A stretch of DNA of 49,748 bases, from assembly GCA_913031395.1 (NCBI GenBank), contig CAJWDT010000008.1, forward strand, positions 1 to 49,748, read 5' to 3'. The notes beneath the pieces are model-generated. The model made no database searches. It saw nothing but the letters and a program-made list of their open reading frames with translations, and was not told the DNA's origin. This DNA comes from an uncultured Gammaproteobacteria bacterium. GTDB lineage: Bacteria; Pseudomonadota; Gammaproteobacteria; Magnimaribacterales; Magnimaribacteraceae. Made by a program: the position numbers and the translations under genes. Below, in pieces: positions 26,343 through 30,435 of the stretch (position 1 is its first letter; each line of letters opens with the position of its first letter).

Positions 26343-26957
26343 ATGTTAATTGATAAGAAACAGAATTATTTACTTCTTAAAGCATCATTATTGCTCTCTC
26401 TGATTGTTTTTGCAGGCTATTTGATATTTTACTTAGGCCTCTTTGAGTTAATTATTGAATCGGACAGAAGCAGAATATCTGTCCTGATTTTAGTGATTTA
26501 TCTTCTTGCGACAGTGCACTGGTTTATGAATGTCTTATCTTTAGACAAAGAGATTGCAAGTATTGATAAACCGTCTAGAGAAACACTTATTGGTAGGTTT
26601 AATATAGAGATGACAAGAGTTAATGAGAAAGATCATGGCTCTAAATTAGGTTTACTTGAAGATGAACTTTCTAATAAGAATGCTCTAGGTTATATGATTG
26701 TTGATATCCTTCTAAAATTGGGTTTAACAGGAACAGTAATTGGCTTCATTTTAATGTTACTGCCAATAGGGGAGATAAAAGATTTTGATCCTCAGATTTT
26801 ACAAAAATTGTTATCAACTATGAGCGGAGGTATGGCTGTTGCTTTATACACAACTCTTACAGGCCTCATTTCAAGTATGCTCTTAAAGTTTCAATACTTC
26901 TTGATAGATTCAAGCTTAAGCCAAACGCTTAACTACCTTAATTCAAAATATGAATGA
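26343..26957 (+). CDS. MotA/TolQ/ExbB-like proton-channel protein
   Basis: A 204-residue inner-membrane protein with four predicted segments (about 11-38, 45-66, 115-142 and 160-187) and a short cytoplasmic linker of about 48 residues. The last two segments carry the channel motif: LLKLGLTGTVIGFILMLLPIG, then MSGGMAVALYTTLTGLISSML. Both resemble the pore-lining helices of MotA, TolQ and ExbB. The linker is far shorter than in MotA and there is no long coiled-coil tail as in ZorA. The next gene overlaps by 4 bp and encodes a single-pass protein of stator-partner topology. The pair could use proton or sodium flow to drive a periplasmic process. Confidence 0.75.
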   Translation: MLIDKKQNYLLLKASLLLSLIVFAGYLIFYLGLFELIIESDRSRISVLILVIYLLATVHWFMNVLSLDKEIASIDKPSRETLIGRFNIEMTRVNEKDHGSKLGLLEDELSNKNALGYMIVDILLKLGLTGTVIGFILMLLPIGEIKDFDPQILQKLLSTMSGGMAVALYTTLTGLISSMLLKFQYFLIDSSLSQTLNYLNSKYE

Positions 26958-27568
26958 AGAATAAGATTCTTATAAAATCTGAAGAACAAGATGTTTTTAC
27001 AGATCTTCTCTTCAATGCTTTATTGGGATTTGCTTTTATGTTTGCTATAGCTTTCATGCTTATTAATAGCTCTGAGGAGGAAGGAAATATTAATACAAAA
27101 GCAGAAGTTTTAATCTCAGTTCAATGGCCCAACGAACATCCTGATGATGTAGATGCTGTGGTTGAAGATCCACAAGGTAAGTTGGTTTGGTATCACAATA
27201 GAGATTCTGGATTGATGCATTTAGATAGAGATGACAGAGGTAATTTGGCAGATAATATCAATATCAAAGGTGATGTTGTATCAAGCCCAATCAATCAAGA
27301 AACAGTAACTGTGAGAGGACTCCAGAGTGGTGAGTATGTTATTAATTTACTTCACTACAAGTCAAACTTCAAAGAACCTTTACCAGTAACCGTCAAAGTA
27401 GAGAAACTAAACCCAACAGTTGAACTCATTTATTATGGGCAACATTTTCTAAACGGAGTAGGGGATGAGATTACAGCGCTTAGATTTTTAGTAAATGGAG
27501 ATAAAGAAGTTGCCGAAATCAATCAATTACCCAAAAGATTGTTAACAAAGGCACTTGGCTCTAAATAA
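26954..27568 (+). CDS. Single-pass membrane protein with periplasmic beta-rich domain (stator-partner-like)
   Basis: A 204-residue protein. One membrane helix (about 18-37) is preceded by FTD, placing Asp17 where ExbD, TolR and MotB keep their proton-carrying Asp. The rest, presumably periplasmic, has no OmpA peptidoglycan-binding and no TolR/ExbD-type domain that I can see. It looks beta-rich: EVLISVQWPNEHPDDVDAVV, DPQGKLVWY, then MHLDRDDRGN, and TVTVRGLQSGEYVINLLHY. The run 'DDVD..V.DP.G' and the Asp-rich LDRDD suggest a calcium-binding beta sandwich. Assigned as partner of the preceding channel by 4-bp overlap and topology. Confidence 0.68.
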   Translation: MKNKILIKSEEQDVFTDLLFNALLGFAFMFAIAFMLINSSEEEGNINTKAEVLISVQWPNEHPDDVDAVVEDPQGKLVWYHNRDSGLMHLDRDDRGNLADNINIKGDVVSSPINQETVTVRGLQSGEYVINLLHYKSNFKEPLPVTVKVEKLNPTVELIYYGQHFLNGVGDEITALRFLVNGDKEVAEINQLPKRLLTKALGSK

Positions 27569-27570
27569 TA

Positions 27571-28131
27571 ATGATAGAAGAAAGGCTTCTATTAACCCTA
27601 GCTTATGTCATTACTTCAGCTTTGTTACTTTTATTTTGTTTTTACACAAGCTTTTCTAAAAAAATCAAATTAAGTGGTGTTGTTGCTTTAACGGTTTTCT
27701 ATATATTTAGCTGGCAAGGTTATTTAGGTATCTTAGGCTGGCCAACTTCAGAAGAACTGCCTGAAAAATTTAATATTAATTGGGTTGTTATAGAAGAGCC
27801 TAATAAAGTATTAAATCAGGAAGGTGGTCTTTTTTTATGGGTTAGAGAGTTAAATGATGCAGATAAACCTATAGGTGACCCAAGGGCTTATAAGTTATTT
27901 TGGAATATCGAGAACCAGAAGAAAGCCCAAGATGCCCTTCACAGAATTAAAGAAGGAGAACAGCTTAACGGAAGAAAATCCTATGGTGTTTTAAATAAAG
28001 ATAATGAAGGTAAAAAATCTAATGCTTATGAGGTTCAGGAGGGTGAGCCGGAACTGGGAAGGCCTTCCTTTGAATTTGTTGAAGTGCCTTCTCCAGATCT
28101 CCCTCCCAAAACACTGATCATGGATCAGTAG
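27571..28131 (+). CDS. Unrecognised membrane protein, third member of the channel module
   Basis: A 186-residue protein I do not recognise. Two hydrophobic helices (about 5-27 and 36-54) flank a basic KKIK turn. By the positive-inside rule the turn is cytoplasmic and both ends are periplasmic. The soluble C-terminal part has LGWPTSEELPEKFNINWVVI, GGLFLWVRELND, DPRAYKLFW, and a Pro-rich end (PSPDLPPK). It starts 2 bp after the preceding stop and ends head-to-head with the alcohol dehydrogenase gene. It may anchor or regulate the channel pair. Confidence 0.6.
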   Translation: MIEERLLLTLAYVITSALLLLFCFYTSFSKKIKLSGVVALTVFYIFSWQGYLGILGWPTSEELPEKFNINWVVIEEPNKVLNQEGGLFLWVRELNDADKPIGDPRAYKLFWNIENQKKAQDALHRIKEGEQLNGRKSYGVLNKDNEGKKSNAYEVQEGEPELGRPSFEFVEVPSPDLPPKTLIMDQ

Positions 28132-28132
28132 T

Positions 28133-30343
28133 CTATTCCTCTTCTTGACCAAACCAAGTAAATTGAGGAGCTTCCATATTTCCTAAAGCCACCTCTCTAT
28201 CTTCATGTGCCCTAGCTTTGACATAGTGATGAATATTCTCTACTTCTTGTTCAGATAAAACGTCTGCAAACGATGCCATACCATTACTTGCTAACAAGCC
28301 TTCCAAGACAATCTGATTGAAAGCATCATGCGTACCTGCAGACATTTTCCTTAAATCAGGTATGCCTCCGGCAGATTTAACAACAAACCCATGACAAACG
28401 GCACAATAATCATTGTAGTTACTCTCCCCATTCTGCATTTGATCAATACTTACTTGCATCAATTGCTGTTCAGGAATGGTTTTATCTCTCACATTTGGAA
28501 TAGGCAATGTTTTATCACCCCCTAGTTTGAATGTCAGCATTCTTCCAAAGTTGTTATAAGTTAACGAGGCTTGAACTTCAATAGGCGGCAGAGGCTCTCC
28601 ACCAAACATATCGCCACCACCTGAACCTGTAAGGATTGAAACATATTGTTCACCATTGATCTCAAATGTGATTGGAGGGGCTAACATAGAAGTGTAAGTA
28701 TTAAATTCCCATAATCTCTCACCGGTTTCTTTGTCGTATGCAGAAAACATACCTAAAGCATCGCCTTGAAAAACTAATCCCCCTGCTGTGCCCAAAACTC
28801 CGCCATTCCAGTAATGAGGTATAGGAACAGACCATTTTGTTTCACCCGTAAGGGGATCAAAGGCTTTTAAAAACCCTCCAGGTTTAGGCTGAGATTCAAG
28901 ATTATTCAAGATATTCTGAGCCAAAGAACTCATCTCTATTCCCATATTCCATCTTCCTGGATTTCTTTTATAGACTCCTGTTTTTTTATAATCTTCTTGA
29001 ATTGCATAGAAGAAAGGATTCTCTTGTGTGGGTATGTAAGCCAATCCAGCATCAATATCAATCGACATAGCCTGCCAATTATGGGCCCCTAAAGGACCAG
29101 GTAGAACCCAGGCACCATTATCTGAGTAATCTACTTCTGGATTTTCAACTGGCCTTCCTGTCTCCAGATCAACATGCGTAGCCCATGTCACAGCAGCAAA
29201 TGGATGAGCTCTAAGTACTTTCCCATTTTCTCGGTCAATAACATAAAAGAAACCATTTTTTGGAGCCTGAAGCAGAACTTTTTTCATTTCCCCATCAATC
29301 TCCATATCTGCCAGTGACATATCTTGAACAGCTGTATAGTCCCAATTATCCTCAGGCGTAGTTTGATAATGCCATTTATAAACACCCGTATCTGCATCAA
29401 CTGCAACTATAGATGAAAGAAATAAATTATCACCACCGCCAGGTGAGCGTATTTCTCTTGTCCAAGGAGAGCCATTTCCAACACCAAGATAAATATTATT
29501 AAAATCAGGATCAAAGACTATTGAGTTCCATACTGTTCCTCCGCCTCCAAATTCCCACCAGTTAGTTCCTTTCCAAGTTTTTGCAGCCATTTCCATTGCA
29601 GGATCTTCAAAGCCTAAATCAGGGTTACCAGGGACTGTATAAAATCTCCATTCCTGTTCTCCGCTTTCTGAGTCATAAGCAGTAACATAGCCTCTTACAC
29701 CATATTCAGCTCCCCCATTTCCAATATAGACTTTACCTTTAGCTACTCTTGGAGCTCCTGTTATTGTGTAGGCTCTTGTTCTATCAATGATGGTGTCAAC
29801 TTCCCAAACTTTTTCACCTGTCTCTGCATTTAATGCAAACAATCTTCCGTCAAGACTCGCAGAGTAGACTTTTCCGTTATAAACAGCTACTCCTCGATTG
29901 ACAATATCACAGCAAGCTTTTCTCGCCCATTCTCCGGGAACTTTTGGATCAAATTTCCAGATGGTTTCGCCAGTTAAGGCATCGACTGCATAAACCCTAC
30001 TCCAAGTACTGGTAAAAAACATTATTCCATCTACAACTATAGGTGTTGCTTCCAAGGCTCTATTTGTCCCCATATCCTTGGACCATACGAGTCCAAGATC
30101 TTCAATAGTTTCTTTATTAATTTGCTTCAGAGGAGAAAATCTCTGTTCTTCGTAAGTCCGTCCATAAGCTAACCAATTGCCTGGTTCTGATTCAGCAGAT
30201 AATATTCTTCTATCATTGATTAAACCTATTGATGCAGAGCCTGAAGTAATTGATTCTTCAGAAACCATTTCTTGATCTGAATTATTGCATCCAGAAATAA
30301 TTATTGTCAGTGTGAGTGCTAAAAAGTAAAACTTGTTTTTCAT
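28133..30343 (-). CDS. PQQ-dependent quinohemoprotein alcohol dehydrogenase, lipoprotein
   Basis: A 736-residue protein from the internal ATG. The signal ends in a lipobox (ISGC), predicting a lipid-anchored periplasmic enzyme. The eight-bladed propeller shows WARKACCDIVNRG with the adjacent cysteines, NWWEFGGGGTVW, and the catalytic stretch TPEDNWDYTAVQDM. The residue two after the catalytic Asp is Thr, as in calcium enzymes, not the Asp of lanthanide enzymes. The C-terminal cytochrome c domain has YCAVCHGF. It oxidises alcohols to aldehydes and passes electrons through haem. No PQQ synthesis gene is in the window. An upstream extension of 18 residues is considered untranslated. Confidence 0.88.
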   Translation of the reverse strand: MKNKFYFLALTLTIIISGCNNSDQEMVSEESITSGSASIGLINDRRILSAESEPGNWLAYGRTYEEQRFSPLKQINKETIEDLGLVWSKDMGTNRALEATPIVVDGIMFFTSTWSRVYAVDALTGETIWKFDPKVPGEWARKACCDIVNRGVAVYNGKVYSASLDGRLFALNAETGEKVWEVDTIIDRTRAYTITGAPRVAKGKVYIGNGGAEYGVRGYVTAYDSESGEQEWRFYTVPGNPDLGFEDPAMEMAAKTWKGTNWWEFGGGGTVWNSIVFDPDFNNIYLGVGNGSPWTREIRSPGGGDNLFLSSIVAVDADTGVYKWHYQTTPEDNWDYTAVQDMSLADMEIDGEMKKVLLQAPKNGFFYVIDRENGKVLRAHPFAAVTWATHVDLETGRPVENPEVDYSDNGAWVLPGPLGAHNWQAMSIDIDAGLAYIPTQENPFFYAIQEDYKKTGVYKRNPGRWNMGIEMSSLAQNILNNLESQPKPGGFLKAFDPLTGETKWSVPIPHYWNGGVLGTAGGLVFQGDALGMFSAYDKETGERLWEFNTYTSMLAPPITFEINGEQYVSILTGSGGGDMFGGEPLPPIEVQASLTYNNFGRMLTFKLGGDKTLPIPNVRDKTIPEQQLMQVSIDQMQNGESNYNDYCAVCHGFVVKSAGGIPDLRKMSAGTHDAFNQIVLEGLLASNGMASFADVLSEQEVENIHHYVKARAHEDREVALGNMEAPQFTWFGQEEE

Positions 30344-30435
30344 TAATGTCCCCATATTTGTTATTACTCTAACTCTTTTTTTTAACTTTTGAAACATAAC
30401 ATCTTCGCTAGATTTGATATATGATTATGCTATAT

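Follow-up and report, generated by a model that had tools for sequence, protein, structure and literature searches.

A MotA/ExbB-like gene triad of marine SAR86 bacteria and many phages, a candidate proton-driven envelope machine

The stretch of DNA analysed here (the window, 49,748 nucleotides) is contig C8 of the 1.08 Mb, 81% complete genome of a marine SAR86 bacterium. Three of its genes, called A, B and C in the following, lie on the forward strand in close succession (Table 1). A and B overlap by 4 bases and C starts after a gap of 2 bases, and the three reading frames, their positions and their spacing agree with the original prediction for this locus. The motifs named there were also found, TGTVIGF and GGMAVALYTTLTGL in A and DDVD and LDRDDRG in B, together with an aspartate at the head of the single helix of B. 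Searches of B and C against Pfam, NCBIfam and PADLOC yielded nothing of note. Upstream of A lie GFA-like, SDR and other genes, which were considered as parts of the module and discarded because they differ among relatives.

Table 1. Genes and residues of the triad locus (positions in the window)
Feature	Position	Strand	Description
A	26343..26957	+	MotA/TolQ/ExbB-like channel subunit, 204 aa; PF01618 match
B	26954..27568	+	single-helix partner, Asp17, periplasmic DUF2135-like beta-sandwich, 204 aa
B Asp17 codon	27002..27004	+	candidate ion-carrying residue; invariant
C	27571..28131	+	two-helix protein, novel small domain, LPxK-type C-terminal end, 186 aa
PQQ-dependent quinohemoprotein alcohol dehydrogenase, C-terminal cytochrome c domain	28133..30397	-	convergent to C; TIGR03075 627 bits

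The assignment of A to the MotA/TolQ/ExbB-like proteins was borne out by a match to the Pfam family MotA_ExbB (PF01618) of 34.1 bits, above the cut-off of 22.9, with an E-value of 2.6e-8. Four helices are predicted, at about residues 9–40, 43–67 and 115–146 and one near 160–185. Among up to 199 homologues, very divergent phage proteins included, threonine 131 is conserved in 98% and threonine 171, glycine 127 and glycine 130 in 100%. When A was compared by hhalign with the canonical homologue of the same genome, residues 119–200 aligned with an E-value of 6e-4, threonine 131 falling on the motif GTVWG and threonine 171 on ATAIGL, the sites at which ExbB and TolQ carry their pore threonines. 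Judged by its sequence, that is by the profile match and by pore threonines kept in its final two helices, A is a member of the MotA/ExbB superfamily. Aspartate 41 in the loop between helices 1 and 2 (window positions 26463–26465) occurs in 100% of 198 sequences, phages included. The cytoplasmic loop of A is short, about 45 residues, and the large cytoplasmic domain of MotA is absent, which counts against the main explanation given below, an ion-driven machine. Searches of PDB sequences with A and with B gave marginal or chance matches only.

In B, aspartate 17 is invariant in 64 out of 64 cellular and viral sequences, as are tryptophan 58, aspartates 65, 67, 93, 94 and 100, arginines 92 and 121, glycine 96, asparagine 114, and glutamate 116. 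The aspartate-rich invariant residues may form a metal site. An AlphaFold2 model calculated from the family alignment (pLDDT 86) consists of a helix from residue 9 to 44 and a beta-sandwich beginning at residue 50. The profile of B detected the DUF2135 domain of a large protein from a different genome (G514) with an E-value of 3.5e-7, and the Pfam profile of DUF2135 (PF09906) in turn matched B of genome G240 with 22.3 bits at a cut-off of 22 and B of genome G497 with 19 bits, below the cut-off; B of the window itself was below the detection of this profile. As these matches are reciprocal, the periplasmic head of B is homologous to DUF2135, with which it has the aspartate-rich beta-sandwich motif in common. 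In contrast to B, the G514 protein (L210:1083–4439) is large, about 1100 amino acids, with the domain that is detectably related to the B head at its C-terminus. Foldseek found no match of the B model in the PDB at E≤0.001. Viral models gave five significant matches, all uncharacterised or unnamed viral proteins, and a tellurium-resistance-like phage protein at an E-value of 0.0036, a resemblance of fold only. PHROG 1735 (function unknown) matches the head of B weakly, and profile searches with the alignments of B and C yielded marginal or chance matches only.

C was originally described as an unrecognised protein with two helices, and so it appears here. Its AlphaFold2 model from the family alignment (pLDDT 86) shows helices at residues 2–25 and 30–54 and a small alpha/beta domain, for which Foldseek found no match in the PDB at E≤0.001, and no curated family covers it. 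Both termini are predicted to be periplasmic. Proline 104, arginine 105, proline 178, and lysine 180 are invariant or nearly so, the hallmarks being PRxY and the LPxK-like end. In five loci (L157, L161, L164, L166, and L180) C occurs in tandem duplicate after B.

Like ExbB-ExbD and TolQ-TolR, the triad combines a MotA_ExbB channel subunit with two pore threonines and a single-helix partner with an aspartate at the helix head in a (P)FxD motif. That B is a diverged ExbD/TolR protein, and the triad a degenerate Ton or Tol system, is nevertheless extremely unlikely. The (P)FxD-L motif at the helix head is common to both, but the ExbD profile PF02472, which matched both canonical ExbD proteins that the genome encodes, missed B even at E≤1. 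Alignment of B with ExbD by hhalign gave a sole match of 16 columns (E-value 0.03, probability 1.6%) that puts aspartate 17 on the aspartate of ExbD; this correspondence is suggestive, and since it spans only 16 columns the helix of B could be convergent. The triad also differs from these systems in the four-helix topology of A with its short loop and in the DUF2135-like head of B, whose modelled beta-sandwich argues against an ExbD/TolR fold, and Pfam identifies C neither as TonB nor as TolA. Moreover, besides the triad the host genome has its two canonical ExbD proteins and another three MotA_ExbB matches, so that the triad is not the Ton or Tol system of that genome. An OmpA-like peptidoglycan-binding domain was not found in B by Pfam. 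The periplasmic domain of B is thus unlike those of ExbD/TolR or OmpA, as had been proposed, but it does have relatives, the domain being DUF2135-like.

With MotA-MotB and PomA-PomB the triad shares the four-helix topology of A and the pore motif; it differs from them in lacking the large torque-generating domain in the cytoplasm, the plug, and the OmpA-like domain. No flagellar genes were seen in the triad neighbourhoods examined. Nonflagellar members of the MotA/ExbB superfamily have been reported as 'generic ion transporters' of unknown function (PMC12505986). In contrast to the triad, domains appended to the A protein (DUF3450, DUF2341) are mentioned for these in the passages of that paper considered here, and none of these passages mentions phage-encoded members.

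The three genes form a conserved unit in related genomes and in much more distant ones. With profiles of A, B, and C the complete triad was detected in 116 of 120 cellular loci, in this order and with all three genes on the same strand. Among the four exceptions two contigs start at B (L117, L133), one is short with A undetected (L179), and one locus is broken (L182). The median gaps in cells are 21 bases between A and B and 2 bases between B and C. Two loci (L138, L156) have inserts of 2.1–2.3 kb between A and B, B and C remaining adjacent. Within the order B was found in 29 of 151 genomes, all of one family and with A-B-C at every such locus; of the sampled genomes of this SAR86 family 29 of 35 have B, several of the misses being incomplete assemblies. 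In the class as a whole 42 of 369 genomes have B at E≤0.01, and 39 of these have it at E≤1e-11. The gene order A-B-C also applies to Alphaproteobacteria which we take to be Bradyrhizobium-like, the annotation 'Bll5685' on the B relative of phage AF3 agreeing with this name. In two loci of this group (L207, L211) the genes for a histidine kinase and its response regulator partner are divergent from A, and regulation by this pair is possible. Plasmids were searched for relatives as well, and none were found.

The triad is also widespread in phages. A scan of IMG/VR with B gave 264 relatives, of which the best 80, as ranked by their similarity to the cellular family, were kept. Iterated profiles detected B and C in all of these best 80 of 264 contigs and A in 78, the two contigs without A beginning at B. 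With 116 of 120 loci in cells and 78 of 80 in viruses, the recurrence of the three genes in the same order and on the same strand is not due to chance. No viral relatives came up in a scan with only A of the window as query, because a pattern made from a single sequence extends to close relatives only. Cultured phages with the triad include Rhizobium phage 16-3 (p038, p040, p042), P10VF, RHph phages, and Sinorhizobium phages, in which the genes are annotated as hypothetical with no function given. Open-access searches by title and abstract yielded no literature on the triad family and no paper on a phage-encoded MotA/ExbB gene set of this kind, and the terms p038, p040, MotA, and TolQ are absent from a paper on AP-16-3 (PMC10460002). 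In rhizobial phages the triad is often followed by a metallophosphoesterase-like gene (of the 16-3 p044 type), and a trypsin-like, probably periplasmic protease is encoded near it (L308 7247–8146, L311 9564–10256, L312 5577–6224, L313 5075–5797), for example in 16-3, RHph_X2_25, and RHph_N3_13.

Neighbours of the viral triads include PHROG terminases, endolysins, head-tail genes, and replication genes. In one lineage (L256/L263–L266) an endolysin lies just upstream, and in the members examined the i-spanin-like (Rz-like) and o-spanin-like (Rz1-like) genes directly precede A. Endolysin genes are likewise close to the triads of L286/L288, L290, and the prophage-like L209. These lysis genes would suit a phage device for lysis timing or disruption of the outer membrane which bacteria had recruited for another purpose, a reading that we regard as rather improbable, as most viral triads sit by nucleotide-sugar, replication or terminase genes. 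Lysis is accordingly not universal to the surroundings of the triad, which in other phages adjoins nucleotide-sugar or replication genes.

The many phages and prophage-like elements with the triad, together with the MotA-like core common to A and ZorA of Zorya ZorA-ZorB, could also be explained by a module for superinfection exclusion or defence that senses injury of the envelope in a Zorya-like manner. We consider this very unlikely. The PADLOC ZorA match of A is weak, at best 9.9e-5, and confined to the channel, which is accounted for by the shared MotA fold; PADLOC found nothing for B or C. In contrast to Zorya, A is without the ZorA tail, B without the ZorB-type OmpA domain, and C is unrelated to Zorya proteins; neither ZorC, ZorD or ZorE nor another effector adjoins the triad, and no effector was seen in the neighbourhood in the window. 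In addition, presence in 29 of the 35 sampled genomes of the SAR86 family with synteny kept is unlike the patchy occurrence of defence genes. The proposal that the locus is not a known ExbBD, TolQR, MotAB or Zorya system is therefore upheld by the miss of PF02472, the lack of an OmpA domain, and the lack of Zorya partners. Of the two outcomes that the original prediction gave as contradicting it, a profile match of B to the ExbD/TolR family and a triad not kept together in related genomes, neither was observed.

A tree of 100 B sequences sheds light on the relation of the cellular to the viral triads. The main cellular clade of 43 rows, Gammaproteobacteria together with the Bradyrhizobium-like ones, is monophyletic (100/99) and nested among viral lineages, a viral clade of 33 being its neighbour (94/90). 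A second, distant mixed group is also found in the tree. The topology fits one transfer between phage and cell. As viral diversity is deeper, the direction from phage to cell appears more likely; with the root of the tree and with viral rows that are only the best 80 of 264, ranked by cellular likeness, it is favoured, not proven.

Three contexts of the triad were distinguished in bacteria. In the first, a gene for a PQQ quinohemoprotein alcohol dehydrogenase lies convergent on the 3' side of C, as in the window, where the best PDB match of the product is 1kv9, a type II quinohemoprotein alcohol dehydrogenase. A scan of GTDB contigs for relatives, of which the best 80 of 123 were kept, showed this arrangement in 71 of these 80 loci and a distance of at most 200 bases from C in 59 of them. 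In the second context a VWA-FHA gene follows C and an L,D-transpeptidase-like gene lies upstream, followed by tilS-accA-dnaE. In the third a lipoprotein gene follows C in most loci, and the triad is situated in or beside clusters of lanthanide-type PQQ dehydrogenases: XoxF/PedH-type clusters with SoxYZ-like and SoxH-like genes contain or adjoin it in six genomes (G223, G338, G175, G743, G728, and G256), and in G783 such a XoxF/PedH-type cluster is near. An uncharacterised lipoprotein-like gene of about 235 amino acids directly after C (L163 8485–9189, L169, L177, L202, L203, and others) occurs in lanthanide-type PQQ dehydrogenase loci and in some others.

Co-occurrence points in the same direction. 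Among 39 genomes with B, 28 gave a strong TIGR03075 match, as did 36 of the 330 genomes that lack B. This amounts to an odds ratio of 20.8 (Fisher p 6.5e-16), the genomes counted not being phylogenetically independent. The triad is thus associated with PQQ alcohol dehydrogenases by two unrelated arrangements and by co-occurrence. This link is strong but not obligate, because 11 genomes with B have neither the dehydrogenase nor pqqC, a gene which the same profile does find in other genomes; strict dependence of the triad on PQQ was rejected for this reason. The dehydrogenase is accordingly regarded as a genomic associate, not a proven part of the machine. SAR86 genomes with the PQQ quinohemoprotein alcohol dehydrogenase lacked pqqC (six tested) and pqqE (five tested) in a set that comprised the window genome, G000, G005, G009, G021, G025, G033, and G017, some of them incomplete and G005 being one contig of 95%. 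These genomes may therefore need imported PQQ. Phage carriage, the DUF2135 homology, and the link to PQQ alcohol dehydrogenases had all been missed in the original prediction.

Taken together, A-B-C is probably a proton-driven machine of the MotA/ExbB type. In such a machine A would be a pentameric inner membrane channel with two pore threonines and B a central dimer with aspartate 17 as ion-binding residue. The output of B would be the periplasmic DUF2135-like aspartate-rich beta-sandwich in place of the ExbD/TolR domain or the OmpA-like peptidoglycan-binding domain. C would be an obligate third subunit, which adds a second periplasmic domain and may serve to couple the motor or to gate it. 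The flow of protons would set the B heads in motion in the periplasm and, together with C, perform work on a target in the envelope. The use of protons, a 5:2 stoichiometry, motion, direct contact of A, B, and C, the envelope target, and the task itself are all inferred.

As to this task, our first choice, tentative and held with clearly less than even confidence, is general work on the envelope, that is on peptidoglycan or the outer membrane. It is hinted at by the L,D-transpeptidase-like gene upstream of the triad in 12 cellular loci and by the endolysin, Rz-like, and Rz1-like genes beside phage triads. The neighbours of the triad differ between phages and bacteria, which counts against one common task. 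The main rival is a dedicated energiser of periplasmic PQQ alcohol oxidation, serving, for instance, to mature the dehydrogenase or to bring PQQ, metal or substrate in through the outer membrane. It would agree well with the convergent dehydrogenase, the XoxF/PedH-type clusters, the co-occurrence, and a possible import of PQQ by SAR86, but is unlikely in view of the 11 triad genomes without dehydrogenase and pqqC, the VWA-FHA gene that takes the place of the dehydrogenase in the second context, the lack of independence of the genomes counted, and the observation that no PQQ genes occur among the phage-triad neighbours examined.

The tasks known for ion-driven machines of the MotA/ExbB kind are a handful: flagella, Ton, Tol, gliding, and Zorya. 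What is new here is the linkage of A, B, and C in cells, the triad in phages, the cellular clade inside viral diversity, and the associations with PQQ and lysis genes. These findings suggest an unrecognised class of envelope machine common to viruses and bacteria. It is a real possibility, if somewhat short of an even one, that this class as a whole is proton-driven, widely phage-borne, captured once from a phage, and now a core possession of a SAR86 family and of other Proteobacteria, often together with PQQ alcohol dehydrogenases. One more class of this kind, having a new output domain and occurring in abundant uncultured ocean bacteria as well as in many phages, the temperate laboratory phage 16-3 among them, would extend this list by a new task and, if true, would mean that viruses carry a proton-powered envelope machine of their own.
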